NCBI GenBank assembly: GCA_030018495.1
Contig: JASEFS010000007.1
Location: forward strand, 1 to 64,000
Direction: 5' to 3'
DNA: 64,000 bases
Source of the DNA: Deltaproteobacteria bacterium
GTDB taxonomy: Bacteria > Desulfobacterota > Desulfobaccia > Desulfobaccales > 0-14-0-80-60-11
The position numbers and the translations under genes are program-made. Shown here piece after piece: positions 11,996 to 52,094 of this stretch (positions are counted from its first letter, which is position 1; the number at the start of each line of letters is the position of its first letter). The notes beneath the pieces were generated by a model. The model was not told the DNA's origin. It worked only from the letters and a program-made list of their open reading frames with translations, and made no database searches.

Positions 11996-12071
11996 GGGGA
12001 TGTAGCTCAGCTGGAAGAGCGCCTGCTTCGCATGCAGGAGGTCAGGGGTTCAAATCCCCTCATCTCCACCA
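11996..12071 (+). tRNA. tRNA-Ala (anticodon CGC), prophage integration target
   Basis: A 76-nt cloverleaf. GGGGATG pairs with CATCTCC (one G-U), the anticodon stem CCTGC/GCAGG holds loop TTCGCAT giving anticodon CGC (Ala), and the T-arm GGGGTTCAAATCCCC is perfect. CCA is encoded. The integrase gene begins its 3' end 15 bases beyond, pointing at the tRNA, the classical layout for integration into a tRNA 3' end. Confidence 0.96.
12038..12071 (+). other. Probable left attachment site within the tRNA-Ala 3' end
   Basis: Tyrosine integrases next to a tRNA typically recombine in its T-arm and acceptor 3' strand, regenerating the gene. Here integrase lies directly beyond. The matching right-end copy is not in the window, so the exact core cannot be defined; the coordinates mark the usual target segment. 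Confidence 0.5.
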
Positions 12072-12079
12072 ATGAATTC

Positions 12080-12105
12080 GGCCACTTAGGTGGCCTTTTC
12101 TTTTT
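12080..12105 (+). terminator. Rho-independent terminator of tRNA-Ala, overlapping the integrase 3' end
   Basis: GGCCAC (12080-12085) and GTGGCC (12090-12095) close a 4-nt loop and are followed by TTTTCTTTTT. The integrase stop codon lies in the loop, so after integration the tRNA acquires a terminator supplied by the element. Confidence 0.7.
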
Positions 12106-13132
12106 CCAAACCCGGTTCACTGAGTAGGTCACTGAGTAGGTTGCCGTTTTCCAGCCTTTTGGCTGCGTCTCTCAGGCTCTCATCGGGCTTGCGGAGATAA
12201 ACCTCGGTGGTGCGCAGGGATTTGTGCCGCAGGAAGCGGGAAAGGGTGGGAAGAGAGATTTTTTCCTTATCGGCCAGGAGGGTGGCCACGTGGTGCCTGA
12301 TGGCATGGAACCCGATGGGGCGGATGCCGGCCCGCTGGCAGACCCCCTGAATCAACCTCTTACGATCCTGAAAAGGCTTGCCGGTCTTGGGGTTGGGGAA
12401 AACCCACTCAGGGTGCTTGTCTTTTTTATTCCAGAGATCCCGCAGAACCTGGTAGAGGTCCTCGTTCATAAAGAGCCAGTCGAACTCCATGGCCCCGTCT
12501 TTTCTCTTCCGGGTCCACAGCCTGATCCGGCGCTCGGAGAAGTTGACGTCATCCCACCTGAGTCGCATCACCTCCCCCACCCGGGCCATGGTGTGGTAAA
12601 GCACCAGGAAAAATGGCCGGTGGGGGCCCGCGGCCAACAACAGACGGGTCATCTCCTCCTGGGTGAGACTGACCCGGTTCGGCTCATCCACCGGCATCTT
12701 GGTCACATGGAAGAACGGGTTTTCCTTTAATAACCCCCGCTTCCAGGCCCAGGTAAACAAGGCGCACAGGTCCTTCCGGTGAAAGTTATAGTTGTAGTTG
12801 CTTTTCCGGGTCTGGAGGTACGATTCGATCAGGTGCGGGGTGATGTGGGACAGGGGCAGATTCCCCGAAAATTCCAGGAAATGCCGGTAGACATAGGACT
12901 TGTATTTCCAGGTCTTAGCCGCGAACTTTCTTTGGGCCTGCTCCAGGTATTCCGTCGCCAGACTTAAGAAGTCCCATTCTTTGGGCGCGGGCGACGAGCT
13001 CCGGGTCAACTCGGCCCGCTTCTTTTCCATAGCGGCCCGGGCCTCCACCTTGGTCTTGGCATGGCCGGAATACCTTTTCCCCAGCACCTGCATCTGCCAA
13101 CGCCATCCCCACTTGGTTTTCCACAGCGGCAC
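12086..13132 (-). CDS. int: Tyrosine-family site-specific integrase
   Basis: The 348-aa recombinase inserts and excises the element at tRNA-Ala. An N-terminal arm-binding segment ([20 protein letters not shown]) is followed by a core-binding SAM-like domain and the catalytic domain. Catalytic residues appear as the Arg in [17 protein letters not shown] (His-x-x-Arg) and the Tyr in TTEVYLRK. Length is typical of phage integrases. Its 5' end overlaps the upstream HTH gene by about 218 bases in another frame, which is unusual (see findings). Confidence 0.93.
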
Positions 13133-18787: not shown

Positions 18788-18988
18788 ATGGACATGAAGC
18801 TGGAGTTCTACGTGGGCATCCACGACATTGCAGAATTCCTGGGACTGCACTGGAAGACCTGCGCCCGCTACCTCCGGGAGGGGAAGATCACCGCGGCCCG
18901 GAAAGACAGCCTGGGCCGCTGGGTTCTCTCGAACCTGGACTACTACCGGAGCCTGAAGGATGTCAGGGAAGCCGAACCCGAAGCCTGA
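18788..18988 (+). CDS. Small MerR/excisionase-like HTH protein (66 aa)
   Basis: The segment VGIHDIAEFLGLHWKTCARYLREGKITAARK is a winged-HTH of the HTH_17 type; a RWVLSNLDYYRS tail completes it. It could act as excisionase or regulator. It overlaps the following gene by 29 bases. Confidence 0.65.
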   Translation: MDMKLEFYVGIHDIAEFLGLHWKTCARYLREGKITAARKDSLGRWVLSNLDYYRSLKDVREAEPEA

Positions 18989-19487
18989 GCCCAAGGTCTA
19001 CGCCGGGGTCAAGTGGGGGCTGCTTCAGCCCACGGTGATCCTGGTGGCCGAATACGCCCCGCCACCGGCGGACCACATTCAGATTTTCCGGGAGCTTTAC
19101 CGCAAGGAGCTTTACCTGGACGAGTTCCTGGCAGTGGCCAGGGAGTGGCGGGAGGAGTTGAAGATCAGGAAGTTTTTCTGCGACCCAGCGGAGCCCGAAT
19201 TCATCGTCCGCATGAGAAAAGCCCGGCTGCCGGCGACAGCTGCGCCCAAGGAGCAGGACCTGGCCCGGAACCTGATCAAGCAACGCCTGGCCAACACCCG
19301 GGAAGGGAGGCCCAGCGGTCTCACCATTTCAAAAGAATGCCGGAACACCATCCCGGAGTTTTTGAAATACCACCAGCCGGAAGGAAAAACTCGGCCGCAG
19401 GAAGCGGATACCCACGGGATCAAGGCCCTGCACTTCCTGGTGCTGGGTCTGAGCCTGGAGGCGACGCCGAGAGTAAGGTGGATTTGA
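18960..19487 (+). CDS. Degenerate terminase-nuclease-like (RNase H fold) protein
   Basis: The 175-aa product follows the order of a terminase large-subunit nuclease domain: KVYAGVKWGLLQPTVILV (strand 1), a YLDEF helix region, FFCDPAEPEFIVRMRKA (second Asp), and a C-terminal ADTHGIKALHFLVLGL. The first catalytic Asp of GxDxG is replaced by Lys (GVKWG), so full nuclease activity is unlikely. It stands alone, without an ATPase domain, about 4 kb from a second nuclease-only terminase protein at 23162-23671. Role unknown; homology is inferred from motif order and not from an alignment. Confidence 0.5.
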   Translation: MSGKPNPKPEPKVYAGVKWGLLQPTVILVAEYAPPPADHIQIFRELYRKELYLDEFLAVAREWREELKIRKFFCDPAEPEFIVRMRKARLPATAAPKEQDLARNLIKQRLANTREGRPSGLTISKECRNTIPEFLKYHQPEGKTRPQEADTHGIKALHFLVLGLSLEATPRVRWI

Positions 19488-20355: not shown

Positions 20356-20751
20356 ATGATTTTCACCAGCAACTTCAAAATCGCCGGACACTTTCCCCAA
20401 GCCGTGGCCATCTCCCGGGGGTTGCCCCGGGGTTGGCGGGGAAGGGTTTACCGGCCCCTGGCTCCCTCCTGGGCGCTGGTGAAAATCTCCGATCCGCAAC
20501 AGTTCATCAGGCTTTACCGGACCCAAGTCCTGGACCGACTAAATGCCGGGCAGGTGCTGAGCGACCTGGGGGGTGATGACTTTGTGCTCCTCTGTTGGGA
20601 GCCGCCCGGAGAGTTTTGTCACCGCCAGGTGGTGGCAGCCTGGCTGAAGGCCCAAGTGGGGGTGGTTGTGGAAGAGTTCAATCTCAGGCTCCGCCGGCAC
20701 AAGGACTGGCTTCGGCTGATGGAGGTTTCATGTCCTTCATCGGTTCCATAA
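20356..20751 (+). CDS. DUF488-like protein (131 aa)
   Basis: FVLLCWEPPGEFCHRQVVAAWL matches the C-terminal signature of DUF488 (LLC.E....CHR..V...L). A second family member lies at 33739-34098 in the same element and shares the F-TS-F opening and LLCWE..G.FCHR core. The biochemical function of the family is unknown. Its end overlaps the Mom-like gene by 22 bases. Confidence 0.65.
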   Translation: MIFTSNFKIAGHFPQAVAISRGLPRGWRGRVYRPLAPSWALVKISDPQQFIRLYRTQVLDRLNAGQVLSDLGGDDFVLLCWEPPGEFCHRQVVAAWLKAQVGVVVEEFNLRLRRHKDWLRLMEVSCPSSVP

Positions 20752-22028
20752 ACGCCGAGACCCGCAAGTGGCTTGGGAACAACGGCCAGGCCTTCGATGG
20801 TCGGCAGGTCTGGGTGGGCTGCTCCGGGGCCTTCACGGTGGAGCAGATTCTGTCCCGGTATGCTGCCAAGGCGAAAATCCGGGGGAACGACGTGAGCCTT
20901 TATTCTTCGGTGCTGGGGGCCTACCTGGCCGGGCAGCCCTTCAATCTTGCGGTCAAGGAAGAGAAATTCGAATGGCTCGCCCCCTACCTGATTGATGTGG
21001 AGGCCAAAGCTGCGGCGGTCATGGTGCTGTTCGAAGTGCTGAAATACGAGAAGGCGGACAACCTGTTCAAACAGCGGCATTGGGCCCACTACCTGAACAA
21101 CTTCGAGGGTTTCCACCAGGCTACCGTCGCCAAGCTCCGGGCGAGGAAGAAAGAGGTCCGGCTGGAGTCCTATACCACGAAAGACATCTTCGACCTCATG
21201 GACGAAATGCCGGAGGACGCAGTGGCCATCGCCTTCCTCCCCACCTACGCCGGGGGCTACGAGCGGATGTTTAAGCGCCTGGAAGAGATCTTCGACTGGG
21301 ACCGGCCCAGCTATGGTCTGATTGACGCCGAGCGCAAGGCGGCCATCCTGAAGAAGATGAAGCAGCGGGATTTTCTCTTCCTGGACGACAAGGAGTGGCC
21401 GGACCTGCCCCTGGTGGCCGCAGTGCGGAAAGCGCGCATGAAGCCAGTCCATATCTACTCGAACATGGAGGCACTGCGCCGGGGGGTGCTCAAGCAGCAG
21501 CGTCATGCCGAGTTTGTGCCCTTTCCAAGGCTGTCGGAAGAGGACGAGATCACCCCGAAGTCCAAGCTGACCATCACCCCCACCATCAACCGGGTGGTGA
21601 ACTATTACCGGGACGTGTACCTCTCCAAGGGAGTGGGGATTCCGGCGGATGGCGAGGTCCCCCTGGTGGCCGCGGTGGACGGCAAGCTCTTCGGGTTTTT
21701 GATCTACTCCCGGATGCAGGGAGGCGGCGATGTGTACCTCTTGGCCGACTTCGTGGTCAACTCCTGCCGCTACCGGCGGCTGGCAAAGCTCCTGCTCCTG
21801 GTGACCCAGAGCCGGGAAGTGCGGCGGTTGCTGGAAGAGAAATTCCTCCTGGAGATACCCAAGTGCCGCACCATGGTGTTCACCGACAAGCCGGTGTCCA
21901 TGAAATACCGGGGCCTCTACCAGTTGGCCCGCCGGGACCCGGGCAAGCTGGTCTACGAAACCGACATGGGCATCCTGGATTTAAGCGAGGTCATCCCCTT
22001 ATGGCTGAAGAAGTTCGAGAAGTCTTGA
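20730..22028 (+). CDS. Mom-like antirestriction DNA-modification protein
   Basis: Start at the ATG at 20730; the open frame extends upstream to 20595 without support. The 432-aa N-terminal part (VWVGCSGAFTVEQILSRY ... GNDVSLYSS) resembles the phage family annotated as putative antirestriction adenine methyltransferase. The C-terminal part (about residues 310-410: LVAAVDGKLFGFLIYS ... NSCRYRRLAKLLLLV ... FTDKPVSMKYRGLYQL) reads like a GNAT acyltransferase of the phage Mu Mom type, which adds carbamoylmethyl to adenine. It likely modifies phage DNA against host restriction. Exact chemistry is not shown by sequence. Confidence 0.55.
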   Translation: MSFIGSINAETRKWLGNNGQAFDGRQVWVGCSGAFTVEQILSRYAAKAKIRGNDVSLYSSVLGAYLAGQPFNLAVKEEKFEWLAPYLIDVEAKAAAVMVLFEVLKYEKADNLFKQRHWAHYLNNFEGFHQATVAKLRARKKEVRLESYTTKDIFDLMDEMPEDAVAIAFLPTYAGGYERMFKRLEEIFDWDRPSYGLIDAERKAAILKKMKQRDFLFLDDKEWPDLPLVAAVRKARMKPVHIYSNMEALRRGVLKQQRHAEFVPFPRLSEEDEITPKSKLTITPTINRVVNYYRDVYLSKGVGIPADGEVPLVAAVDGKLFGFLIYSRMQGGGDVYLLADFVVNSCRYRRLAKLLLLVTQSREVRRLLEEKFLLEIPKCRTMVFTDKPVSMKYRGLYQLARRDPGKLVYETDMGILDLSEVIPLWLKKFEKS

Positions 22029-22798
22029 ACCTGCTCAACGAGAAGCTCTCGGGCCTTTTTCCCTACCGGCTGGAGTTGGCCGATCCCGGGGAGCTCAAGC
22101 TCCTGGAAAAGAACGCCCGCTACATGAAGGCCGAGCAGTTCCAGACCCTGGTGGAAAACGTCAAGAAGGACGGGAACCTATCCTCATTGCCCCTCTGTTA
22201 TCGGGAGAAGGACGGCAAGCTCCGGGTGCTCTCCGGCAACCACCGGGTCATGGCCGCCCGGCAGGCCGGGGTGGAGCAGGTCCTGGTGCTGGTGATCGCA
22301 GATGAAAAGGACATGGACGAGCGCTTGGCCATTCAGCTTTCCCATAATGCCATCGCCGGCCAAGACGACCTGGTGATCCTGAAGGAGCTGTGGGAGAGCA
22401 TCAAGGACGTGCAGGCCCGGATGTACGCCGGGTTGGACTCGGACACCCTTAAGGCTCTCCAGGGCATCCAGTTTGCGGCCATTACCGAGCAGCGCCTGCG
22501 CTACAAGCTGACCAGCTTCCTTTTCCTGCCCGAGGAACTGGAGGACCTGGATCAGCTATTGAAGGAAACTGCCGCGGCCTTTGCCGGGGATGCGGTGTAC
22601 CTGGCCTCCCTCAACACCTACGACGCCTTCTTCGACCTCATCGTGCGGATCAAAAAACGCTGCCAGATCAAGAACTCCGCCGCCGCCTTCCTGAAGCTGA
22701 TGGAACTGGCCCGCATCGGCCTGGAGCAGTTGATCAAGGAAGAAGCCCTGCAATCCTCAGAATTGAATGGAGAGGAGGCTCATCATGAGGTGGCTTGA
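22001..22798 (+). CDS. ParB-fold protein paired with the Mom-like gene
   Basis: Starts at the ATG at 22001 inside the end of the Mom-like gene (28-base overlap), so it is probably co-translated. In the 265-aa product MKAEQFQTLVENVKKDG and GKLRVLSGNHRVMAARQAGV match the ParB/Srx N-terminal domain; the long helical C-terminal region has no clear HTH. Being coupled to a DNA modifier, it may direct or power the modification, a functional inference. Confidence 0.65.
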   Translation: MAEEVREVLNLLNEKLSGLFPYRLELADPGELKLLEKNARYMKAEQFQTLVENVKKDGNLSSLPLCYREKDGKLRVLSGNHRVMAARQAGVEQVLVLVIADEKDMDERLAIQLSHNAIAGQDDLVILKELWESIKDVQARMYAGLDSDTLKALQGIQFAAITEQRLRYKLTSFLFLPEELEDLDQLLKETAAAFAGDAVYLASLNTYDAFFDLIVRIKKRCQIKNSAAAFLKLMELARIGLEQLIKEEALQSSELNGEEAHHEVA

Positions 22799-23165
22799 AG
22801 TCCTTTTGCCCTACCGGGCGGCGGATAATTTCCAGGGAGCAGCCCTGGTGGCCCAGGACAAACATCTCCTGCGCCTGGCGGCAACCTGGTCCCTGGTGCC
22901 GCGAACCCTTCCCGATCCTCCCGGCCCTGGCAAGGAAGTGGACCTGGAAGAGGTCTGGCGGCAGACTAGTATCAACTTTCAGGGGTGGGTGGCGTTGAGC
23001 CAATTGCCTCACTTGGTGGTGATGGAGGGGTTCAAAGCACTCAAAGGAACACAGGTAATCCTGCCCGACGGCACCTTGAACCACGCGGTGGAGACCCTTC
23101 TTCAGAAAGAGGCGGCGGGGCAGTTCATGGCCAAGTTGAATATCAAGCCAGGAGATTTGAAATGA
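22785..23165 (+). CDS. Hypothetical phage protein upstream of terminase nuclease
   Basis: Start at the ATG at 22785, eight bases after GAGGAGG. The 126-aa protein has no recognised motif; it carries LLPYRAADNFQGAAL near the N-terminus and a basic, helical C-terminus. It overlaps the terminase nuclease gene by four bases (ATGA), so it is translated with it. Confidence 0.55.
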   Translation: MRWLEVLLPYRAADNFQGAALVAQDKHLLRLAATWSLVPRTLPDPPGPGKEVDLEEVWRQTSINFQGWVALSQLPHLVVMEGFKALKGTQVILPDGTLNHAVETLLQKEAAGQFMAKLNIKPGDLK

Positions 23166-23671
23166 GCCGCAACCTGGCCGTGTTCGACTATCGCCCCGAG
23201 GGTGAGCTTTACCTGGGCATCGACTTCGGGTACAAGAACCCCTTTGCCTGCCTGTGGATTCAGCCCATCGACCAGGGCGAGCGGGTGCTGGTGTTGGATG
23301 AATACTACCAGCGCTACCGAACCACCGCGGAGAACGGCCGGGCGCTCCTGGGAATCCACCTGGCCTCCGGCTATGGCCGCCTCACCGATACCTACGCCGA
23401 TCCTTCGGACCCCGAGAAACGGGCGGTGCTGTCGGAGATCCTGGGGATAGAGGTTAAGGCGCCCCGCCGCAGCGTGGAGGTGGGCCAGGAGCTGGTGCGG
23501 CGTTGGCTGAAGGTGAGGCCCGACGGCCTGCCTGGCCTCCTGATCCATCACCGCTGCAAGGAATTGATCTCAGAGCTCAAGGGCTACATGGTCCACGAAC
23601 CCGGCAGGGGCCGGCACCATGCCCTGGACGCTTTGCGGTATTTCTTTGCCGGCTGGCCCGGGGCAGACTGA
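23162..23671 (+). CDS. Terminase large subunit, nuclease domain as separate protein
   Basis: A 169-aa stand-alone RNase-H-fold nuclease domain of TerL. Catalytic acidic residues appear in LGIDFGYKNPFACLW, TYADPSDPEKRA and GRHHALDALRY, the normal order and spacing. The N-terminus (after MSRNLAVFDYRP) begins exactly where the ATPase-domain protein at 24548-25465 stops, so the two proteins together make one complete TerL. The ATGA overlap with the upstream gene shows it is translated from its own start. It should cut phage concatemers during packaging. Confidence 0.85.
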   Translation: MSRNLAVFDYRPEGELYLGIDFGYKNPFACLWIQPIDQGERVLVLDEYYQRYRTTAENGRALLGIHLASGYGRLTDTYADPSDPEKRAVLSEILGIEVKAPRRSVEVGQELVRRWLKVRPDGLPGLLIHHRCKELISELKGYMVHEPGRGRHHALDALRYFFAGWPGAD

Positions 23672-23700
23672 AAAAAATTTTGCAGGAAAAGGGAAAGGAC

Positions 23701-24180
23701 TTGGACAAGAAACAGTCCAAACGGGAGCAGAAAATCGCTCGTGCCATGGAGGTTCAGGGCCACTACATCGGCGGCATGCGGCCCGGAGATATTGCCGATC
23801 TCATGGGCGTTTCCGAGCGAACGGTGTGGAACGACCTGAAGCTGGCCAGGCAGCTTAACCGGGAAGAAGTTCAGGCCTTCGATCACGAGGAACTCCTGGG
23901 GAAACGACTGAAAGTTTTCCGACTGATCCGGACCAATGCCCTGCGGGATTACCAGCTTTGCAAGGAAGGCGGCAACGCCAAGGCTGCCTTTCTGAACATT
24001 GCGCTCCGGGCGGAAGAGAAAATCACCCAGTTGCTCCAGGACGTGGGGGCCATCGTCAAGGTGCCGGAGCGGGTGTCCATTGAAGAGGGGAACCCCTTCA
24101 GCGACACGGAATTCCGTCAGAAATACATCGCTCTGATGAAAGAGGCCAAGGCGAAGGGAATAAAAATCTACGGATTGTGA
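23701..24180 (+). CDS. Terminase small subunit-like HTH protein
   Basis: The 159-aa product carries an HTH (MRPGDIADLMGVSERTVWNDLKLA, about residues 26-50) followed by a helical oligomerisation region, the usual TerS design. Start is uncertain: TTG at 23701 is chosen (AAAGGG eight bases upstream); TTG at 23680 and ATG at 23746 are alternatives. It lies between the TerL nuclease and ATPase genes and should recognise the packaging start site. Confidence 0.6.
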   Translation: MDKKQSKREQKIARAMEVQGHYIGGMRPGDIADLMGVSERTVWNDLKLARQLNREEVQAFDHEELLGKRLKVFRLIRTNALRDYQLCKEGGNAKAAFLNIALRAEEKITQLLQDVGAIVKVPERVSIEEGNPFSDTEFRQKYIALMKEAKAKGIKIYGL

Positions 24181-24547
24181 GAAAAAACAGCTAATTACAA
24201 ATATGGAAAATAATTTTTTACAAAAAGGTCAACTCCCCACTGACCCCCTGGAAAAGGGCCGGGCTTCCCACCACCCCCCTTATTCCCCCACCTGTTTCCC
24301 ACCGTTTTCAGACCTGGGGGCGAGCAAGGGTAACCTTTTTATATTTCAATATAATTCCGGGGACGCAAACGGGTGTAACGAAGCGAACAACGACTCCTTT
24401 ACCATTTATATGCACTACTGTTTTGCCGGTATTTACCCCTTAAAAGTGGCGTAGGCGGGATACCCCTGGCGGGGCTATTTCGGGGCTTTGGCATACCGGG
24501 TGCTACCGTACCCTTGTGCTTGCCTTGTTTCGTCTCCCGGGACTTTG
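24181..24547. other. Intergenic region before the terminase ATPase gene
   Basis: About 370 bp without a convincing gene. The first part, right after the TerS-like stop, carries a GGATTGTGAGA motif (24172-24182) that recurs twice near 25590 and 25610 beyond the ATPase gene. A C-rich stretch (24235-24310) follows, then AT-rich DNA. Possible packaging-site or RNA region; nothing firm. Confidence 0.35.
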
Positions 24548-25465
24548 ATGGTTGCATCTGTGCTCACCTCCAATAGCCACCTTACCGGTCGGGAGATCCT
24601 CCAGTGGGTGGAGCACCATCGGGCCGTGGGTTTTGCCGGTCCAGAGGAACTCCTGGACTTCATCGACATCTTCTGGGACATCCGGGTGCCCCGGGTTAAG
24701 GTCTGTCCGGAGCACACCCCGCCAGCGGAATACGTGGTGGCCTCCTTTTTTGAAGAGGTCCTGGACTGCGTCTGCTGGGCCAACCGCAGCGGTGGCAAGA
24801 CTTTGAACGGCGCCCTGGTGACTTGGCTGGATTCGGTGTTCAAGGGCAACTGCGAGACCAAGATTTTGGGCGGCTCGGGGGAGCAGAGCCTCCGCATGTA
24901 CGAGCATATCAAGAGTTTTGTCACTCCACCCTTCCAGCACTTGGTGGAGGGGGAGGCCCTGCGCACCCGGACCCACCTGGTGAACGGCTCCAACATCCAG
25001 ATATTAACAGCCTCCACCAAGTCCGTCCGTGGCCCCCATCCTCAGAAGCTGAAGCTGGACGAGGTGGACGAGTTTGAGGACCGGATATATGAGGCCGCAC
25101 TCCTGATCCCCAAATCGGCCAAGGGCATCCGGGCCTCAGTGCAGATTTACTCCACCATGCACAAGGCCTACGGCCTGATGAACCGGGTGATCACCGAGGC
25201 GGCGGAGAGCGGTTACCGGGTCTTCAAGTGGTGCGTTTTTGACGTCATGGAAAAATGCGTGGGCCGGGACTGCGAGACCTGCGAACTCTGGGAGGACTGT
25301 GAAGGGAGAGCCAAGGAAGCTGATGGCTTTTACCCGGTGGAGGACGCCATTTCCGCAAAACGCAAGGTGTCCAGAGAGACCTGGGAATCGGAGATGCTGT
25401 GCCGCATGCCCAGCCAGGAGGGACTGATCTATAAGGAATTCGACTTGTCGATACACGTTATTTAA
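24548..25465 (+). CDS. Terminase large subunit, ATPase domain as separate protein
   Basis: The 305-aa product has the packaging ATPase motifs: Walker A-like CWANRSGGKT near residue 80, Walker B KLKLDEVDEF near residue 165, and the coupling segment SVQIYSTMHKAYG. A Cys cluster (CVGRDCETCELWEDC) follows. It ends at SIHVI-stop, the point where other TerL proteins enter the nuclease domain; that domain is encoded upstream at 23162-23671. Start is uncertain: ATG at 24548 or TTG at 24488, neither with a strong ribosome site. Confidence 0.85.
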   Translation: MVASVLTSNSHLTGREILQWVEHHRAVGFAGPEELLDFIDIFWDIRVPRVKVCPEHTPPAEYVVASFFEEVLDCVCWANRSGGKTLNGALVTWLDSVFKGNCETKILGGSGEQSLRMYEHIKSFVTPPFQHLVEGEALRTRTHLVNGSNIQILTASTKSVRGPHPQKLKLDEVDEFEDRIYEAALLIPKSAKGIRASVQIYSTMHKAYGLMNRVITEAAESGYRVFKWCVFDVMEKCVGRDCETCELWEDCEGRAKEADGFYPVEDAISAKRKVSRETWESEMLCRMPSQEGLIYKEFDLSIHVI

Positions 25466-25740
25466 ACTAAAGCGATAACGTTACTTTCCTCATAACCAAA
25501 TAATAATAACAAGACCAATAACAATTGGGAGCGGTGAAGTTTGTCCTAAAATAAAAGTAACGCTTATAACAATGTTCAACAATACTTAGGATTGTGAGAT
25601 TAAACTTACGATTGTGAGAAAATACATGTTGCTATAGGTGCGTAATATTATAGGAATAAACTAAAACACGATAACAAATAATGAATAACTTAATACTACA
25701 TAACAGTAAGGGTGGTGATGCTTATTTGCTAATCAAATAA
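25466..25740. repeat. AT-rich non-coding segment with direct repeats
   Basis: Strikingly AT-rich against its surroundings. AACTAAA followed by CGATAAC occurs twice (about 25464-25480 and 25661-25676), and (G)GATTGTGAGA occurs twice (about 25590 and 25610), matching a copy at the TerS-like gene end. It may be a packaging or replication start site, or the variable 5' part of the structured RNA that follows. Confidence 0.5.
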
Positions 25741-26394
25741 CAGCAGGGCCGGGTGGGAGGCCAAACGGGAATGCGGCTCCCACAGGTTACATGTTAACCG
25801 AAAAAACCCAGGTAACGGAAGCAGACCTGGCCCAATCAGAGAGGAAATAGCAATCCTGGCAGCCTTACGAGGTGGGCGAAATTGCAAGTTCCCCCGATCA
25901 CCTGAATGCGGGTGACGGCGAAGGGGTCCCGGCGAACTAGATCGAATCTGGGTAGGCGGGTAGGCGGCGCCACCGAAAGCGACCAGCAACTGAGCGGCTT
26001 GATGATGAATCTAAACGCTCACAGTTTTTTGGATTTACTGAGAAGAATCCTGGTGTTCAGGCACCTAAAACCCTGAGTCGTAAAACCGAGCCGGAGACGA
26101 GGCGAAAATCGGGAACGCCGGTTAGTGAGTACCTGAGGCGCAGGCCGGCCAGCGGGTGGTGCGAGCGACGGGACCGCTGGAAGGAAGGCGAAAGCGAGAG
26201 GCGCAAGCGATGATTAGCAGCCGGGTTGGGAAGCGATGAAGCCGTTGACCCTGGATGGCTTGTGGGTGGGCCGATAACGAACCCTGGGCGGGTTGCCCTC
26301 AAGGACCCAGATCAAGGCGTTGAAGGAGGGGGCGGGAGCCAAGGTTCCTGTCTCCCATTGAGCGCCTTGCTCGAATTCCAAACGGGAGGACAGG
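25741..26394 (+). ncRNA. Candidate large structured phage RNA, class unassigned
   Basis: About 650 nt without coding signal but full of stable hairpins: GTGGGAG/CTCCCAC (25753-25759 with 25777-25783), GGTTA/TAACC (25785-25799), CCAGGT/ACCTGG (25808-25813 with 25825-25830), CCAGCGG/CCGCTGG (26149-26155 with 26174-26180), AAGCC/GGCTT (26239-26261), and small stems capped by GAAA (26190-26193) and GCAA (26203-26206) tetraloops. Size, GNRA loops and phage setting recall GOLLD or ROOL RNAs, but I cannot confirm membership. A 3'-terminal stem covers the ribosome site of the next gene. Confidence 0.6.
26347..26394 (+). promoter_or_regulatory. Ribosome-site-sequestering stem
   Basis: CCTGTCTCCC (26347-26356) pairs with GGGAGGACAGG (26384-26394) through ten base pairs and one bulged G. 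The GGGAGGA ribosome site of the 26395 gene lies inside the stem, so its translation should depend on opening this structure. Confidence 0.6.
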
Positions 26395-28172: not shown

Positions 28173-29615
28173 ATGATTACCGACTATTTGAAAGCCGGAT
28201 ATCCGGTCCTGCTGGTCAGGACCCATGAGCCGGAGCGGTTCATCGGCTCTGCTTCCCAGCAGGCCAACGGCCGGACATCTTTGCAGTGGGATGTGGTCAG
28301 GGGTTACCGGGAAATGGGCAATGGAGCTGAGTGGCAGGAGTGCGACCCCTTTGACCTGCCCAACATGGCGGCCAAAGGAACGGAAAAAGCGGTCTGGTTT
28401 CTCCGCAACTTCCACTTTTGGCTGAATGAGCCACCGGTTATTCAAGCCATCCAGAACAACCTGCCAGTGTACAAGACCAAGGGCATCACCCTGGTCATCA
28501 TCTCCGCGGACGTCAGGCTTCCTCTGGAACTGGAGCGGGAGGTGGTGGTGCTTGACTTCCCCCTTCCCACCCGGGAAGAACTGAAAACCATCCTGGGCGG
28601 CCTGGTCGAAAGCACAGGGATCGAGCCGGAAGACACAGAGGTGGTCTTGGATGCAGCCCAGGGGCTCACCTGGGAGGAAGCGGAAAACGCCCTAGCCCTG
28701 GCCCTGGTGCGGCAGAAGCAGTTTGACCCTCATACCATCTGCACCCTGAAGGCCCAGATGGTGGAGAAGTCGGCGGCCCTTCATTTCTCCCAGTTCACCG
28801 AGACCTTCGCCACCCTGGGGGGCCTGGAGAACTTGAAGGATTGGACGCTGAATCGCTTCAAGAATCGGAAGCCCGGCCTACCTTTCCGGGGCATTCTGCT
28901 CCTGGGAGTCCCTGGGACCGGGAAGAGCCACTTCGCCAAGGCCCTGGGGAACGAGGTGAGCTGGCCGGTGCTGTCTTTAGACATGGGCCGGGTCTTCGGG
29001 TCGCTCGTGGGCGAAAGCGAAGCCAAGATGCGGGAGGCCCTGAAGGTGGTGGATGCCATGGCGCCCTGCGTGCTGTTCATAGATGAGATCGAGAAGGGGC
29101 TGGCAGGGGTGGGTGGTTCCTCCTCCGACGGGGGCACGACCCAACGGGTGGGCGGCACTTTCCTTACCTGGCTGAATGACCATACCAGCCAGGTCTTCGT
29201 CATCGCCACCTGCAACGATTATTCGAAAATCCCGCCGGAATACACCCGAATAGGCAGGTGGGACGCCATATTTTTCGTGGACAACCCGGGGACCAGGGAG
29301 CAACTGGACATCCTGGACATTTACCTCAACCAGTTCATGGGTAAGACCATCGGGACTCTGATGGCCGAGAGTGACGGCCGGGTCAAAATCCCTGACCTGG
29401 ATGGATACAGCGGCGCGGAAATCCGCCAGGTGGCCATCGAGGCGGCCTATAACGGCGGGGACCTGGAAGCCTCGGCCCGGTTCGTCATCCCCATAAGTAA
29501 ATCACAAAAACAGCAGATGGACGCCCTGCGGGAATGGGCCAGGGCAAGGACCATACCGGCCAGCAAAGCGCTGGCCATGGAGGAAGTGAAGGCAAAAAGG
29601 AGGGTGCAGCTATGA
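28173..29615 (+). CDS. Ycf46-like AAA+ ATPase
   Basis: The 480-aa protein has an N-terminal domain resembling a degenerate ATPase (TLVIISADVRLPLELE near residue 110) and a C-terminal AAA+ module with Walker A GVPGTGKSH near residue 247, Walker B CVLFIDEIEK near residue 300, sensor 1 IATCND and an arginine-finger region YTRIGRWD. This two-part layout is that of Ycf46, a cyanobacterial/plastid AAA protein of uncertain role. The next two genes are DUF1257 (Ycf35) and DUF2997 members, strengthening the call. Overlaps the following gene by four bases. Confidence 0.75.
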   Translation: MITDYLKAGYPVLLVRTHEPERFIGSASQQANGRTSLQWDVVRGYREMGNGAEWQECDPFDLPNMAAKGTEKAVWFLRNFHFWLNEPPVIQAIQNNLPVYKTKGITLVIISADVRLPLELEREVVVLDFPLPTREELKTILGGLVESTGIEPEDTEVVLDAAQGLTWEEAENALALALVRQKQFDPHTICTLKAQMVEKSAALHFSQFTETFATLGGLENLKDWTLNRFKNRKPGLPFRGILLLGVPGTGKSHFAKALGNEVSWPVLSLDMGRVFGSLVGESEAKMREALKVVDAMAPCVLFIDEIEKGLAGVGGSSSDGGTTQRVGGTFLTWLNDHTSQVFVIATCNDYSKIPPEYTRIGRWDAIFFVDNPGTREQLDILDIYLNQFMGKTIGTLMAESDGRVKIPDLDGYSGAEIRQVAIEAAYNGGDLEASARFVIPISKSQKQQMDALREWARARTIPASKALAMEEVKAKRRVQL

Positions 29616-35830: not shown

Positions 35831-36967
35831 ATGGCTGTAAAAGGTTTAACGCCCCAGTTGGCGGAACGTGGGAAAATCAAGATCGGGGAGCGGGGAGAGA
35901 TGAAAACTTCCCAGGGCGGCAAGCAGTTTGCCCAACCCCGAAAGCTCGATCATTTTCTCATCACCACCATGCAGCGGGACGCGGCCGGGCGGCTGATGCC
36001 GGACGCGGCCCTCATGGCCCGGCTCAAGCCCGAAGGCGGCAAGATCACCGAGATTCCGGTGCGCCTGCTCTATGACGATATCGATCTGAACTTCCCGACC
36101 CGCTTTGCTTCTTATAGGGGAACCCGCTGCTGGTGCTCCGGAGACGGGGAGGTAGCCCACCGTCTCACCGGCGAGAACGGCAAGTACCAGGAGGTCACCT
36201 GCCCCTGCGAGCGGGTTGACCCGCTATATGCCGCTCCGGACAAGTGTAAAATCCTGGGCACCCTGCAGGCGCTGATCGAGGGGGTGGACCGGATCGGCGG
36301 CGTCTGGAAATATCGCACCACCAGTTGGAATACAGTGAATGCGATCCTCTCTTCCCTGGCCTTGGTCAAAACCGTCACCGGTGGACCCCTGGCGGGTATC
36401 CCCCTGCACCTGGTCCTCTCCCCCAAGACAGTCACCGTACCCACCACCGGGCAGAGCATGCTGGTTTACGTGGTGAGCCTGGAGTTCCGGGGCACCGAGT
36501 CCCAACTGGCAGAACTGGGCTATGACATCGCCCGCAAAAGGATGGAGCACCGGGTCAAGATGGAGCAGATCGAGGCCGAGGCCCGAACCCGGTTGCTACC
36601 GCCCCAGCAGGAGCCTCTCCAGGAGCAGGAGGAGACGGCCCAGGAGTTTTACCCTGAGGGGGTGGAAGGCGGCCCGGTCAATCCAGCGCCTGACCTCCCT
36701 GCTCCTTCCGTGCAGGAAGAACCCAAATCCAAGGGAAACGGCAAAAGGGGAAAGAAAGCCAAAACCCCGGAACTGAGGCCTTGTCATTACCACCCCGATC
36801 GCCCGGCCACCTGGCAGGACGAAGCAGGGATGCCGCGCTGCGAGGGTTGTGAACCTCCCTCAATTCAGGAAGGGAAAGGCGAGTTGGCTACTGATCCCAC
36901 CGCCCCACCACCCCCTCCGTCCGGAGAGGGCCAGGAAGCGTCTTCCCAGCCCAAGACCCTTTTCTAA
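35831..36967 (+). CDS. Gp3-like phage protein (recombination-directionality-factor family)
   Basis: The 378-aa product opens with GKIKIGERGEMKTSQGGKQFAQPRKLDHFLITTM, matching the start of the Gp3-like family that includes the phiC31 recombination directionality factor. Cysteines at CWCSGDG and CPCER follow, then a conserved core (AGIPLHLVLSPKTV) and a Pro/Glu-rich tail ending in a second small Cys/His site (CHYHPDRPATW..CEGC). The integrase here is of the tyrosine class, so the phiC31 role cannot simply be transferred. Confidence 0.6.
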   Translation: MAVKGLTPQLAERGKIKIGERGEMKTSQGGKQFAQPRKLDHFLITTMQRDAAGRLMPDAALMARLKPEGGKITEIPVRLLYDDIDLNFPTRFASYRGTRCWCSGDGEVAHRLTGENGKYQEVTCPCERVDPLYAAPDKCKILGTLQALIEGVDRIGGVWKYRTTSWNTVNAILSSLALVKTVTGGPLAGIPLHLVLSPKTVTVPTTGQSMLVYVVSLEFRGTESQLAELGYDIARKRMEHRVKMEQIEAEARTRLLPPQQEPLQEQEETAQEFYPEGVEGGPVNPAPDLPAPSVQEEPKSKGNGKRGKKAKTPELRPCHYHPDRPATWQDEAGMPRCEGCEPPSIQEGKGELATDPTAPPPPPSGEGQEASSQPKTLF

Positions 36968-37064
36968 ACCCATACAAACCTTGCCCGCCCCCAAATCGGC
37001 CCCCTGCGGACGTCTCAGAGGGTCGGTTTGGGAAGCGCACTATGCTAACATTCAGGAGGACGAG

Positions 37065-38168
37065 ATGAAAAAATCCCAATATTCGTTTTCCCGGCTGGAC
37101 CTCTACGAGAGGTGTCCATGGGCTTACAAGACCGTCTACCTGGACCGCATCCCTCGGGCAAAGAACGAAGCCCGGGAAACCGGCCAACTCCTGCATGGCC
37201 TGGTGGCAGACTATCTGAATCGGCTGATCGCCACAGGCCATCCCACCGACTGGGACTGGGCCAGAGGTGCGACTCCCAAGGAGGCCTTATCTGATGCCAT
37301 AGAGATGTGGAACCGGTTCTACGAAACCTTCGCCATGCCAGAGGGCCTTGGGTCTCCTGGGGTGGAGAACCGGCTGGCCTTTGATGCAAGCTGGCAACCC
37401 TGCGAATTCTTCTCAGAGGAGGCTTACTTTCGCATGGTAATAGACTTCCACTTCCGCCAGGACAGCCTGGGCGTCATCGTGGACTGGAAAACCAATCGGG
37501 AAGTGCCCCAGACAGTGGCCAAAGACCTTCAACTACGCACCTATGGATGGGGCTTGAAGCAAGCCCTCTATCCCGAAATCCAGGAGGTGCTCCTGCGTTT
37601 GCATTTTCTGCGTTATGGCAAAGAGCGGGAGGTGATGCTGATATCCCACGACCTGGCCGAAGTGCCGGACGAACTAGAGGCCCGGATCGCGACCATTGAG
37701 GTGGACAAGAACTATGACCCTACCCCTGGTTCCTTCTGTGGCCTTTGTGGAATCACTCCCTACTGCCCGGTGATGTCTAAGGCCCTGGCTCCTATAGAGG
37801 TCCTGGCCCCGGCCACCAGGGAACAGGCCGAAAAGGCCGCCTCCCTTCTCCTGACCCTACAAAAGATGGAGAAAGAACTGGCCGCCCGCTTGAAGGAATG
37901 GGTCAAGGAGAACGGCCCAGTCCAGGTGGGGGACTTGGTCTATGGTCCCATGGAGGTGGTGTCTTACGATCTGAACACCAAGGCCGTGGTGGAGTTCCTT
38001 CTCAACGAGGGTCTGGAGCGGGAAGCCGTCTGGCCTCTACTGGGCATCACCAAGACCGGTCTGGAGAGGGGCATGAAGAAGCTCCAACGGCCAGACCTGC
38101 TAAAGCGAATCTTGTCCCTGAGCAACCATAAAACGACCGAGAGAATCGATTTTCGCCGGAACCCCTGA
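37065..38168 (+). CDS. Cas4/RecB-like PD-(D/E)XK nuclease
   Basis: Start at the ATG at 37065 (AGGAGG upstream). The 367-aa protein opens SQYSFSRLDLYERCPWAYK, the S-x-L-x-x-Y-x-x-CP entry of RecB/AddB/Cas4-like nucleases; FRMVIDFHF and IVDWKTN give the catalytic Asp and DWK, and DLQLRTYGWGL the QxxxY-like motif; a C-terminal CGLCGITPYCP with the first Cys could bind an iron-sulfur cluster. Likely acts in phage recombination or end processing. Confidence 0.8.
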   Translation: MKKSQYSFSRLDLYERCPWAYKTVYLDRIPRAKNEARETGQLLHGLVADYLNRLIATGHPTDWDWARGATPKEALSDAIEMWNRFYETFAMPEGLGSPGVENRLAFDASWQPCEFFSEEAYFRMVIDFHFRQDSLGVIVDWKTNREVPQTVAKDLQLRTYGWGLKQALYPEIQEVLLRLHFLRYGKEREVMLISHDLAEVPDELEARIATIEVDKNYDPTPGSFCGLCGITPYCPVMSKALAPIEVLAPATREQAEKAASLLLTLQKMEKELAARLKEWVKENGPVQVGDLVYGPMEVVSYDLNTKAVVEFLLNEGLEREAVWPLLGITKTGLERGMKKLQRPDLLKRILSLSNHKTTERIDFRRNP

Positions 38169-39815: not shown

Positions 39816-39856
39816 CGGTATGATGGCAAAGGGAAGATTGTAAGGGGATGGAGACT

Positions 39857-42800
39857 ATGAAATATAGAGACCTGATCCGGTTCGAGCCTATTGAGTCCGT
39901 AGTTCAGTTGCGGGACGCCGATGAAGCGGCTGCCGCCCGACAGCTTGTTGAGACCTATGTCATCTCAGAAGAGATGGCCGAGAAGCTGATAAGCCTTGTC
40001 ATCCCACAACTTCAGTTTGACCAGCCCATGGACAATAAAGGACTTCTGGTCGTTGGGAATTATGGAACCGGGAAATCCCACCTCATGTCGGTGATCTCCG
40101 CTTTAGCCGAAAACGGGGAGCTATCCTCCTATCTGAATGACCGAAATGTGGCCGCTGCAGCAGGTAAAATCGGTGGCTGCTTTAAAGTGGTGCGCACGGA
40201 ATTGGAAGGAATAAAGATGTCCCTCCGGGATTTTATTTGTGGGCATCTTGAGGAAGTTTTCCGTGATTGGGGAGTGGAATTTCAATTTCCCCCGCACGAA
40301 CAAACGCTCAGCCATAAGACCTTGTTCGAAGAGATGATGACAGCATTTCATGAGCAGTTTCCTGATCATGGCCTTCTTTTTGTTGTGGATGAGCTTCTTG
40401 ACTATCTCAACAGCCGTAAGGACCAAGAACTTATTCTGGATTTAAACTTCCTCAGAGTAATCGGCGAGATATGCAAAGATTTGCGTTTCCGGTTCATCGC
40501 CGGTGTCCAAGAAGCCATTTTTGATAGTCCCCGTTTCGCCTTTGTGGCCGACAGCATCCGCCGGGTGAAGGACCGATTTGAGCAAATTCTCATCGCCCGG
40601 AGGGACGTCAAGTTCGTAGTAGCCGAGCGACTACTCAAGAAGACCGGTGAGCAGCAGACTAAAATCCGTGACCACCTCACTCCCTTTGCCAAATTCTATG
40701 GACGTATGAATGAACGTATGGATGAGTTTGTCCGCCTCTTCCCTGTTCATCCAGACTACATTGATGTCTTCGAGCAGATAAGAATTGCCGAAAAACGCGA
40801 AGTCCTTAGAACTCTTTCTCTCGCCATGAAGAAACTGCTTGATAAAGATGTCCCGGATGACCGCCCCGGGCTGATTGCTTACGACAGCTACTGGGCGAAC
40901 TTGCGTGAAAACCCATCTTTTCGTGCTGTTCCAGACATCAGGGCGGTGATCGACTGCAGCCAAGTACTGGAGTCCCGCCTCCAGCAGGCCTTTACCAGGC
41001 CGGCATATAAGCCTATGGCGCTCACAATAATCCATGCCTTATCTGTCCACCGGTTAACCACCGGCGATATATACGCCACCTTGGGTGCGACGGCCGAGGA
41101 ACTGCGTGACGGATTATGCCTGTATCAGCCTGGTATCGAGGACTTGGGCGGCAACCCGGCAGATGATCTGCTTTCCCAGGTGGAGGTTGTTCTTCGAGAA
41201 ATTCATAAAACGGTGAGCGGCCAGTTCATTTCGTCCAACCCGGACAACCGACAATACTATCTCGACCTGAAGAAGACCGATGACTTTGATGCACTCATTG
41301 AAAAGCGTGCTGAGACCCTCGACGACTCGCAGCTTGACCGCTACTACTACGAGGCCCTGAAGCGGGTAATGGAGTGCATCGACCAGACCTATGTCACCGG
41401 CTACAAGATCTGGCAGCACGAACTCGAATGGTTGGAGCGGAAGGCGGCGCGCCAAGGCTACCTGTTTTTCGGGGCGCCAAATGAAAGGTCCACCGCAGTG
41501 CCACCACGCGACTTCTACCTTTACTTTATCCAGCCCTTCGACGCGCCTCACTTCAAGGATGAAAAAAAGCCTGATGAGCTTTTCTTACGCCTGACGAATA
41601 CTGATGAAGCCTTCCGCAGCGCTCTGCGGAACTATGCTGCGGCCCTCGACCTATCTTCCACTGCCTCTGGGCATGCCAAATCTACTTACGAGTCCAAGGC
41701 CTCGAGCTTCCTGCGGGATCTAGTGCTATGGCTACAGAAAAGTATGACCACGGCTTTTGAGGTTACCTATCAGGGGAGGAACAAGTCCCTAACCGAGTGG
41801 GCCAAGGGTAAGTCGATCCGAGAGTTGTCTGGCATTGCCTCCTACGAACGCATCAATTTCCGCGATTTGGTGAACACCATAGCCGGCATCTGCCTTGGGG
41901 CCCATTTCCAGGACCAAGCTCCCGAGTACCCTTTCTTTTCGGTGCTCATTACCGGAGCCAACAGAGCCCAAGCAGCCCAGGACGCCCTGCGGGCCATCGC
42001 TGGGCAGAACCGGACAAAGCAGGCAACCGCAGTGTTAGATGCCCTTGAACTCCTTGACGGAGACCGGCTTGATCCGTACCGGTCGAAGTACGCCAAACAC
42101 ATTCTTGACTTCGTGAACAAGAAGGGACACGGCCAGGTGGTCAACCGCTCCGAGTTGATTCAAGAAGTCCTCGGAGTGGAATACCTTGCCCCGCAGACCA
42201 TGCGACTTGAGCCTGAATGGGCGGTGGTCGTCCTAGCCGCGCTGGTTTACTCCGGCGAGATAGTGCTGGCTATTCCGGGTAAAAAGTTTGATGCCACTGG
42301 TCTTACTCAACTGGCTGGAACAGGAATCGATGAACTGACTCAGTTCAAACACATCGAACGGCCTAAGGACTGGAACTTGCCGGCACTCAAGGCTTTATTC
42401 GAGTTGCTCGGGCTGACGCCGGGCCTGGCCCAATTGGTCACCCAAGGGAAGGAAGAGCCGGTTCAGGAGCTCCAAAAGGCCATAGTAGCGGTGGTGGAAA
42501 GGCTTGTGCTTGCCCAGCAGAACCTACTAACCGGGGTTTTTTTCTGGGGTCGCAATTTGCTGACCGCAGAAGAAATTCAGGGGTTACGTTCCCAGATGGA
42601 TGAGACCAAAAACTTTTTGGAGTTGCTTCAGGCCTACAACTCTCCGGGTAAACTAAAGAATTTCCGCTACGATGTTCAGGAAGTGACCAGTCATCGGGCT
42701 GGGCTCCAGGCTTTAGAAGAGATTGAGTCCTTGCAAGAACTGGTTACTGACCTCGGAGCCACAGCTTCCTATCTCTCTACAGCTGAGGCGGTCTTGCCCA

Positions 42801-43585
42801 TCGGGCATGAATGGATCGATCAAGTGAAGAGAGTGCGAGATGAGGTTCTCGGCCAAATCAGCGACTCTGCCAAGCGAAGCGTAGCAAATTTCCGGCAACA
42901 GACCCAACGTCAGCTTATCGATCTTAAGAAGGCCTATTTACAGTTTTATCTTAGCTTACATACCAAGGCTCGTCTTGGTGTAAACGAAGACAAATTCAAG
43001 GCTCAGCTCATGGTGGATGAGCGTTTGAGGGTTTTGCAGAAGCTTTCCACCATCGACCTTATGCCTCGCCAGCACCTGACCGATTTTCAGAACCGTCTGG
43101 CAGGCCTGAAAAGCTGCTTTGCCCTTACTGAGCCAGAACTTGGCGCCTCACCTGTTTGCCCGCACTGCAGTTATAAACCCGCTGCAGAAGCACTAACGGC
43201 CCCGGCTGGCAAAGTTCTAAACAGCCTGGATGCTGAATTGGACAAGTTGATAGACAACTGGACCCAGACGCTGCTCGCCAATCTGGAGGACCCCACCACT
43301 AAAAGCAATTTGGACCTTCTCAAGCCTGAACCCCGAAAGCTGGTGGATGACTTCATTAAGAGGAGATCATTGCCTGATAAACTGGACCAAGAATTCATCC
43401 AGGCCTTGCAGGAAGTTCTCTCCGGGCTTCTCAAGGTGTCGGTCAAGACCACCGATCTCCGGGCCGCACTGCTCACAGGTGGCTCCCCGGTGACGCCAAC
43501 GGAGATGAGAAAGCGGTTTGAAGAATACTTGGATCAACTCACCAAGGGTAAGGAACCTGAAAAAGTACGGATTGTTTTGGAATGA
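39857..43585 (+). CDS. brxC: BREX protein BrxC/PglY-type large ATPase
   Basis: The 1242-aa protein has Walker [15 protein letters not shown] near residue 60 and a Walker B region [12 protein letters not shown] near residue 175; the rest is long helical repeat with a zinc-knuckle CPHCSYKP near residue 1110. This matches the DUF6079-type BrxC of BREX loci at full length. The ATG at 39857 has GGAG five bases upstream, better than the ATG at 39848. Overlaps the HD gene by four bases. Needed for BREX methylation and phage exclusion in studied systems. Confidence 0.88.
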
Positions 43586-44919
43586 GAGTGATGGGTAAGA
43601 CTTACGAAATTCGAGACCCGATACACGGTTTTATCGAGCTGAATGAATGGGAGCGGGATATCGTTAATCATCCCGTATTTCAGAGGCTACGCCGGATTCG
43701 TCAGCTTGGCCTCACTGACATGGTATATCCAGGCGCCATGCATACCCGTTTCGAACATTCACTCGGTGTCATGCACGTTGCCACAAAAATGTTCGACCAG
43801 ATCGTAAAGCGCCGGCAAGATTTTTTAGAAACAGAGCTTTCTTTCACTGCAGGTGGCCTTGAGAGAGATCGTGTCCTTGTTCGGCTATCATGCCTATTGC
43901 ACGATGCAGGCCATGCTCCATTTTCTCATGCGGCTGAAGGATTGATGGATAAGGATCCGACAACGAACAAGTCTTATAAACATGAAAACTATTCAGCGGC
44001 AGCTGTGGCGTTCTTGATGCAGGATGTGATTGAGAATCACCCGTTAAATCAGAACTACAAAATAACAGCCCAAGAGATTGCTGATTTCCTCAACGGCCGG
44101 GTGGCTCTTGGCCGAGTCCTTCTTTGGCGGAGCCTCGTTTCAAGTCAATTAGACGCCGACCGTGCCGACTACCTGCTCCGTGATTCACATCACATCGGAG
44201 TAGCTTATGGGAGATACGACCTTAACCGCCTATTGGTAACTTTAACCATTGCTTTAGATCCTGAAACCGAATCCCCTGTTTTAGCGATCGAGGATGGAGG
44301 TGTACATGCGGCTGAGGCTCTGATTCTTGCAAGGTACTTCATGTTTACTCAGGTATATTTCCAACATACGAGACGTGCATACGATCACCATTCCGTCCAG
44401 GCTATTAAACATCTCTTGATGGAGGCGCAAAGAGGCGGCGATCTCGCCAACAAAGAAGCCTTTCCTTCGCCAACCTCACGAGAAAATATGGAGCAGTATT
44501 TGAAATGGGATGACTGGCGCGTTCTTGGGATGATTCATCGTGGCCTCGCCAGTGAACATGGTGATATACTATTAAATCGTCAACACCACCGCCGGGTTTT
44601 CGAAACCCCTGAAGTCCCGAATACTTCTGACCTTGAGTTCGCAGAACAAGTTTTCGCAGGATTAGATGACCTTGTAAGTTTCGTGGATAAAGCTGAAAGC
44701 TCTTGGTACAAGTTCGAGTCGGCTGATATCCCGATTTTACTCAGACCAGGCCAGGGTGACGAGGAGCTCACCAAGCTTTCCAGACTGTCCACGGTTGTCA
44801 GTGGTCTGAAAGCCGTCAGCAGAACTCGTGTCTATGTCGCCATTGAAAACAAAGAGGAGGCACTTGAGAGAGTTCGTGTTCTCCGCCAGCAAAAAGAGCA
44901 AAAGGAGGCTCAAGCATGA
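43582..44919 (+). CDS. HD-domain (SAMHD1/YwfO-like) phosphohydrolase
   Basis: The 445-aa protein begins [20 protein letters not shown] and carries [32 protein letters not shown] and [14 protein letters not shown], the H...HD...D metal-binding residues of HD phosphohydrolases related to dNTPases. Such enzymes can remove dNTPs, a recognised antiviral tactic. Overlaps brxC and the next gene by four bases each, so it is co-translated with BREX although not a BREX-3 core gene. The HD-YwgA pairing also exists in Bacillus (ywfO-ywgA). Confidence 0.85.
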
Positions 44920-45491
44920 AAGTCAGTCTGGACATTCCGTGGCAAAGGTATGCGCTCATTGCTGAGCTTGCCCAGCGTTGCGAAGGAAAATGCCCTCAAT
45001 TCGGCAAAACTGTGCTGCAAAAAATGGTGTATCTGCTGCAAGAGGTTTTTCATATTGATTGTGGCTATGATTTTGATATCTACGCCTATGGTCCTTTCAC
45101 CCCTCAGCTCTTGCAAGACCTGGATCTTGTGGAGCACACTGGCGCCGTAAAAATTCATCCTGTTGCGTCCATGACGGGCGGATATGAGATCAGTCCCGGT
45201 GGACAGGCGGCTGCACTTATTCAAAAGGGATCAGACTTTCTCAACAAGGGGGAGGTGAAAAAGGCCATTGAAACCCTGGTTGATGAATTTGGACGCTTTT
45301 GGGCCAAGGACTTGGAGCTTCGCTCAACGATTATCTTCGTACAACGAGATTCTCAAAAGCAGGGAAAACTTCTTTCAGCCGATGACATTGTAGAAATTGT
45401 TAAACAAATAAAGCCCAAATTTACCAATGCGGAAATCCGTGACGCCGTCGAGGAGTTGAAGTCGAAAAAATATTTGGAGCCGGTTGCCTAA
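44916..45491 (+). CDS. YwgA-like protein
   Basis: The 191-aa protein has KTVLQKMVYLLQEVFHIDCGYDF-IYAYGPFTPQLLQDL, the signature of YwgA-family (SocA/Panacea-related) proteins. It overlaps the HD phosphohydrolase gene (ATGA); the pair probably acts as a unit in which YwgA controls or adapts the enzyme. Function of YwgA itself is not established. Confidence 0.65.
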   Translation: MKVSLDIPWQRYALIAELAQRCEGKCPQFGKTVLQKMVYLLQEVFHIDCGYDFDIYAYGPFTPQLLQDLDLVEHTGAVKIHPVASMTGGYEISPGGQAAALIQKGSDFLNKGEVKKAIETLVDEFGRFWAKDLELRSTIIFVQRDSQKQGKLLSADDIVEIVKQIKPKFTNAEIRDAVEELKSKKYLEPVA

Positions 45492-45532
45492 AATATATAC
45501 ACCGGGATCTTTGCTGGGGAAAGGAGATAAAA

Positions 45533-45781
45533 ATGAGCAAAGGTAGAGATCGTACAGTTTCTCGCCGCCCTGATGGCACTTGGGAAAACAAGCGAAATGA
45601 TGCCAAGAAAGCATCCAGCCTGCATCAGACCCAGAAAGAAGCAGAACAGGCGGCCAGAGAGATGCTGCGGAAACAAGGTGGAGGAGAGCTGACGACAAAA
45701 GGCCGCGACGGCAAGATAAGGAGCAAGGATACCATAGCGCCCGGCAATGATCCCAATCCGCCCAAGGATACGGAGCATTAG
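45533..45781 (+). CDS. DUF2188 protein (82 aa)
   Basis: RTVSRRPDGTWENKRNDAKKASSLHQTQKEAEQAAREML is the DUF2188 motif, a small basic two-strand-plus-helix fold of unknown role. AAAGGAG precedes the ATG. It lies between the HD/YwgA pair and pglX. Confidence 0.75.
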   Translation: MSKGRDRTVSRRPDGTWENKRNDAKKASSLHQTQKEAEQAAREMLRKQGGGELTTKGRDGKIRSKDTIAPGNDPNPPKDTEH

Positions 45782-45818
45782 CCGAATCGGGGTGAGTCCC
45801 AGAGTCAAGGCGGATGAC

Positions 45819-50731: not shown

Positions 50732-50734
50732 AAA

Positions 50735-52042: not shown

Positions 52043-52094
52043 TGACTTATCCTGTCCGGGCCGATAAAAGGAGGGCAAACCTCCTCCTACGTTC

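Follow-up and report, generated by a model that had tools for sequence, protein, structure and literature searches.

A putative two-protein phage terminase with nuclease and ATPase genes in reversed order

The window analyzed here covers the initial 64 kb of the 126-kb contig C59 from a deltaproteobacterial genome (3.46 Mb in 63 contigs, 99.97% complete), and it holds the terminase genes of a prophage. In this prophage, the two domains of the terminase large subunit (TerL) are encoded by two genes: the nuclease gene (NUC) comes first, a gene for a helix-turn-helix (HTH) protein in the position of a small terminase subunit (TerS) follows, and the ATPase gene comes last, directly upstream of a conserved noncoding region with a large structured RNA (Table 1). 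In other words, instead of the single TerL polypeptide with the ATPase in front, there are separate open reading frames (ORFs) in reversed order. An earlier inspection of the DNA without database searches (the sequence-only reading) had proposed TerL halves in reversed order around an intervening gene, and had placed a nuclease with three acidic motifs and an ATPase with Walker A and B motifs at coordinates that proved right.

The NUC protein matches the PHROG terminase large subunit family phrog_5653 (E-value, E, 2.6e-12) and reached no Pfam or NCBIfam family. Its fold is predicted with a local distance difference test score (pLDDT) of 90, and the best PDB matches of the model are terminase nucleases and large terminases, i.e. 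those of D6E, SPP1, G20c and P22 and T4 gp17. Among relatives, which share 44-91% identity with the window copy, D20, D80 and D156 are kept in the alignment; the protein has the RNase H fold and acidic triad of TerL nucleases. The ATPase protein has the Walker A/B and coupling motifs that are expected of TerL as an additional strand catalytic glutamate (ASCE) ATPase, and three of its motifs, NRSGGKT (Walker A), LKLDEVDE (Walker B) and STMH, hardly vary among 26 relatives (63-95% identity to the window copy). It gives weak matches to PHROG terminase families and no match in Pfam or NCBIfam, and its profile had no match in a sequence search of the PDB. Its structure model is of low confidence (pLDDT 57); yet the four best PDB structure matches are all T4 gp17.

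The identity of both proteins as TerL halves is settled by fused homologues that hold both in one ORF. In the TerL of a Phycisphaerae metagenome-assembled genome (MAG), L092, a single 552-codon frame encodes an ATPase followed by a nuclease. Residues 32-305 of the ATPase protein align to residues 34-331 of L092 (41% identity, E 4e-73) and residues 12-164 of NUC to residues 340-506 (29% identity, E 6e-11), with eight residues between the two parts and no overlap. Because both proteins align side by side on L092, the split lies at the domain boundary of TerL and leaves each domain present once, and the ATPase chain indeed stops where the nuclease chain begins in fused homologues. L092 and a second fused Phycisphaerae TerL, L093, also have a Cys-rich segment before the junction, as does the window ATPase.

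The order NUC-TerS-ATPase is kept in about 25 phage and prophage loci, on viral contigs as well as in genomes from the same bacterial family. By ATPase, the nearest named relatives belong to MAGs with the labels Deltaproteobacteria, Syntrophales or Syntrophobacterales, which makes a Desulfobacterota host probable. Across both genes, the ratio of nonsynonymous to synonymous substitutions (dN/dS) is 0.05-0.21 (0.10-0.21 for NUC), i.e. both are under purifying selection. Since the same order recurs in this many loci with these low ratios, the arrangement is not due to chance. The identities of the two proteins to the window copies do not always track one another (NUC 61% and ATPase 90% in L026; NUC 81% and ATPase 71% in L078), which suggests that modules have been exchanged.

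Table 1. Features of the prophage terminase locus and its surroundings (window coordinates unless stated)
Feature	Position	Strand	Remarks
tRNA-Ala(CGC)	11996-12071		
attL, 49 bp at the tRNA-Ala 3' end	12025-12073	+	identical attR copy at contig 101433-101481
Prophage integrase	12086-13132	-	PF00589
TerL nuclease-like paralogue	18960-19487	+	phrog_6672, E 6e-6; lacks acids 1 and 3 (GVKWG, HGIKAL)
Phage DAM-like/GNAT-like protein, same cassette as NUC	20730-22028	+	PF22555, PF22559
ParB-like gene, same cassette as NUC	22001-22798	+	PF02195 below cut-off; phrog_723 among PHROG matches
Conserved gene directly upstream of NUC	22767-23165	+	stop overlaps NUC start (ATGA)
TerL nuclease domain as own gene (NUC)	23162-23671	+	ATG start, 169 aa; acids D20, D80, D156
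TerS-like HTH protein	23701-24180	+	TTG start chosen, 159 aa; HTH/sigma r4-type Pfam matches, weak PHROG matches
Conserved noncoding TerS-ATPase spacer	24195-24509		nhmmer profile match
TerL ATPase domain as own gene	24548-25465	+	ATG start, 305 aa; Walker A, Walker B
Conserved noncoding region with large structured RNA	25466-26394	+	best-supported part 25833-26394
H-type pseudoknot in RNA	26022-26024/26038-26040 and 26031-26035/26046-26050	+	covariation
Hairpin beside pseudoknot	26052-26055/26062-26065	+	covariation
3' hairpin of RNA	26300-26380	+	94.5% of cells paired
Portal protein with Mu F-like domain	59807-61882	+	PF04860, PF04233
Prohead protease	61893-62771	+	PF04586/PF05065 reported for protease-capsid pair
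HK97-type capsid protein	62768-63988	+	PF04586/PF05065 reported for protease-capsid pair

Searches of the whole assembly with either protein returned a single ATPase and a single NUC, and a fused TerL was absent from the matches of a nuclease hidden Markov model (HMM) in the window and further downstream to 100 kb, a range that ends ~1.5 kb before attR. Within the range of these searches, a full-length TerL elsewhere, which would have refuted the sequence-only reading, did not turn up. Both parts have start codons of their own. The ATG of NUC overlaps the stop of the upstream gene and is preceded by AGGAG; in some relatives, by contrast, 0.4-0.6 kb separates the two genes, so that the proposed translational coupling of NUC to its upstream neighbor stands for the window and not as a general trait. 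Given the single copies, the separate starts, and the lack of introns near the genes and of intein-like extensions in the proteins, two separate proteins, as the sequence-only reading had expected, are the best reading. An alternative is that the halves are rejoined to a normal TerL, either by trans-splicing of a split intron or by a split intein. The split falls exactly at the junction, the conserved structured RNA region begins near the ATPase stop, and in several loci a short pairing between the 3' end of the ATPase gene and the start of the RNA region is visible by eye, all of which would fit with rejoining. However, Rfam searches near either gene detected no group I or group II intron, neither protein has an intein-like extension, and NUC has its own start and ribosome-binding site and in the window overlaps the gene upstream. 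Moreover, the last residue of the ATPase is the same in loci with and in loci without the conserved noncoding region directly downstream, apart from a short extension at most, and genomes that lack both NUC and the RNA keep the same ATPase end. Because no intron or intein was seen and the ATPase end is independent of the sequence that follows, we discarded introns and inteins as the cause of the split and consider rejoining, which no feature of the sequence calls for, extremely unlikely.

With the 49-bp att stretch at the tRNA gene repeated exactly at the distal end, the prophage measures ~89 kb. It also encodes a CI-like repressor, replication genes, a head-tail adaptor and apparent tail genes, and the portal, protease and capsid genes are intact within the same att-bounded element that holds the terminase parts. 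Between the early genes and the portal gene lies a large block of lower GC content (39848-59571) with genes for a DUF6079 ATPase, an N6/N4 methylase and a helicase, which is probably defense cargo; a second cargo-like block with large genes lies before attR (C59 82634-101000; L003, L004). Upstream of NUC, a nuclease-like paralogue is encoded in which acid 1 is a lysine (GVKWG) and acid 3, in the alignment, a lysine or glycine. Because these two acids are replaced, the paralogue should not cut DNA. It is kept upstream of NUC in about a dozen loci with a dN/dS of 0.10-0.21, and it may derive from another terminase lineage since it is similar at its C-terminus to a different fused TerL, L052.

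These very large cargo regions, the distance between the TerL parts and the portal gene and the predicted inactive paralogue could be read as signs of a defective prophage with a decayed or rearranged terminase, the function of which is replaced by a helper phage. That about 25 loci are arranged alike and show low dN/dS, that the catalytic residues are conserved and that the structural genes are intact argues against decay, which we therefore regard as improbable to a high degree.

The HTH gene lies between NUC and the ATPase gene, where the sequence-only reading had placed TerS. Its protein matches no recognizable TerS family profile, its matches being to HTH/sigma-type and to unrelated or unknown-function profiles. 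Thus, the position of the gene stood up, while the assignment as TerS, which we adopt here as putative, follows from position and size. The 370 nt between this gene and the ATPase gene are noncoding, and a 326-position nhmmer profile of this spacer has nearly gapless matches in over 20 distinct loci, two of which are the nuclease-less islands L076 and L090. As a second structured RNA, the spacer was rejected: consensus folds on either strand gave ~77-81% pairing with little double change, and because of this low covariation we treat it as DNA. Being conserved DNA beside the TerS gene that is common to phages and islands, it is a candidate pac/cos site; a promoter or operator function would also be compatible with it. 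A 17-nt direct repeat resembling GATTGTGAGAAAAAACA occurs at 24173 (the TerS stop) and at 25590 and 25610 (both in the RNA region), and an identical copy of the repeat at 24173 is present in L033.

Several elements have the ATPase without NUC. TerS and ATPase genes with no NUC nearby were found in five loci (L076, L077, L080, L082 and L090), and two genomes (G013 and G019) encode the ATPase with NUC nowhere in the genome; pairing of ATPase and NUC within one element is, therefore, not obligatory. In the ATPase tree, these NUC-less rows occupy two supported places and one unresolved place. L076 (VGSW01000053.1) and L090 have a common backbone of integrase, DUF3987 protein (88% identical), helicase (81%), TerS and ATPase, with the L090 integrase represented by its C-terminal end at the cut of the contig and TerS assigned by position in both. 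Beyond the backbone, L076 encodes an SNF2 helicase together with BrxD-like ATPases that resemble defense proteins. Neither island has a match to the portal or capsid of the window phage. The two thus have the gene layout of satellites (integrase, replication genes, TerS by position and no structural genes seen), which makes them putative phage satellites. L077 and L031 have a DnaG-type primase in common; L080 and L082 look more like remnants. Taken together, these elements suggest that parts of the terminase motor are interchangeable. Like the recurrence of the gene order in other phages, the nuclease-like paralogue, the conserved spacer and the structured RNA, they go beyond what the sequence-only reading had noticed.

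The NUC-less loci and genomes are also the evidence for the idea that the ATPase works with another nuclease, either of the host or of the phage, such as the PD-(D/E)XK protein (PDDEXK_1) encoded at 36849-38168, and that NUC has a different role. By contrast, NUC adjoins the TerS and ATPase genes in the phage loci and equals the half that is fused to the ATPase in homologues. On this basis, we consider a different role for NUC highly improbable.

Over the 929 nt that follow the stop codon of the ATPase gene, identity is 95% to L024, 89% to L026 and about 70% to L040, and a core is present in many loci. The GC-rich 3' part of the region shows clear covariation: for the pseudoknot and its adjoining hairpin, 91.3% of cells are paired, with 38 double-change cells compared to 9.4 in shuffles, and the pseudoknot signal collapses when the partner strand is slid; the 3' hairpin (Table 1) is a further part of this signal. 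The RNA model R1 has matches in eight of 22 family genomes, the same eight that hold NUC, and none in the nuclease-less islands tested. Rfam gave no match at gathering score for the window and 13 loci, nor, for the window stretch, at E up to 5 except for an insignificant match to sau-19 (E 4), and we rejected a known Rfam family as the identity of the RNA; a group II domain V-like motif noted by eye near 26088 was likewise dropped for want of an Rfam match. The region is possibly a new large phage noncoding RNA (ncRNA); it might be an ornate RNA like GOLLD and ROOL, which are associated with prophages, or might act in packaging. The 3' hairpin occurs twice in L045 (7389, 7693), L039 (3278, 3647) and L088 (3332, 3704), with a distance of about 300-370 nt between the copies. 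Downstream of the RNA, a gene for a CDC48/FtsH-like AAA+ ATPase (28173-29615 in the window) is kept in most related loci.

Based on these data, we suggest that the phage encodes a two-protein large terminase, a reading that we hold with high confidence, with the ATPase protein as the motor and NUC as the genome-cutting subunit. In this model, TerS would recognize the packaging site, maybe the conserved spacer beside its gene; the ATPase protein would act as the packaging motor, NUC would cut the genome as a separate subunit in trans, and both would come together at the portal through non-covalent contacts where an ordinary TerL has its linker. Some points weigh against this model. The two-protein terminase is proposed here from sequence and models, of which the ATPase model is poor; TerS is assigned by position; several elements do without NUC; and the portal gene lies 34 kb from the ATPase gene behind the defense-like cargo block, and the prophage may be unable to package. 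More speculatively, and on balance unlikely, the locus could be part of a packaging machine of exchangeable parts, in which TerS, pac/cos site and ATPase travel as a cassette among phages and satellites that lack the nuclease, the phage supplies the nuclease, and the structured RNA joins packaging or virion formation. If so, the motor would be the satellites' own, and nuclease, portal and capsid would come from the helper.

The coordination of motor and nuclease inside TerL is a long-standing question, and most studies of it use linked domains. With a TerL that is unlinked in nature and stable in evolution, it would be possible to add, remove or swap each activity on its own. Split genes that are not collinear are also missed by annotation, as illustrated by the two parts described here, neither of which reaches a Pfam or NCBIfam family.

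The window pair has the same two domains and catalytic motifs as ordinary TerL of the T4 gp17, D6E and SPP1 G2P types, and differs from these in being encoded by two genes, in reversed order, with TerS between; the fused Phycisphaerae proteins, at the identities given above, keep both domains in one ORF. Among the terminase large subunit families in PHROGs are short ones of 145-239 positions. In the Parabacteroides phage phiPDS1, the two TerL domains also lie in two coding sequences, for which its authors considered the codon table or the assembly as the cause; no reversed order or intervening TerS is described in the passage on its terminase (PMC10773633). In Jug phages, terL is likewise fragmented, into two to three pieces, but by group I introns, with splicing shown by metatranscriptome reads (PMC12363816), whereas an intron-split terL with collinear exons does not describe the window, in which no Rfam intron was found and the order is non-collinear. 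Thus, a split TerL is already known; for the reversed order around TerS, we found no earlier report in the open-licence literature. Similar to GOLLD and ROOL, which are large ornate bacterial RNAs (PMC12286853), the window RNA is large and structured; it differs in adjoining a terminase ATPase gene and in having no match to an Rfam covariance model, and it adds a new candidate to the small set of large phage ncRNAs. Finally, L076 and L090 resemble phage-inducible chromosomal island (PICI)-like satellites in integrase, primase, helicase and TerS, in the defense-like genes of L076 and in that no capsid genes were seen. Unlike these satellites, the two islands carry the TerL ATPase together with TerS, which suggests that satellites can carry the motor and not TerS alone.
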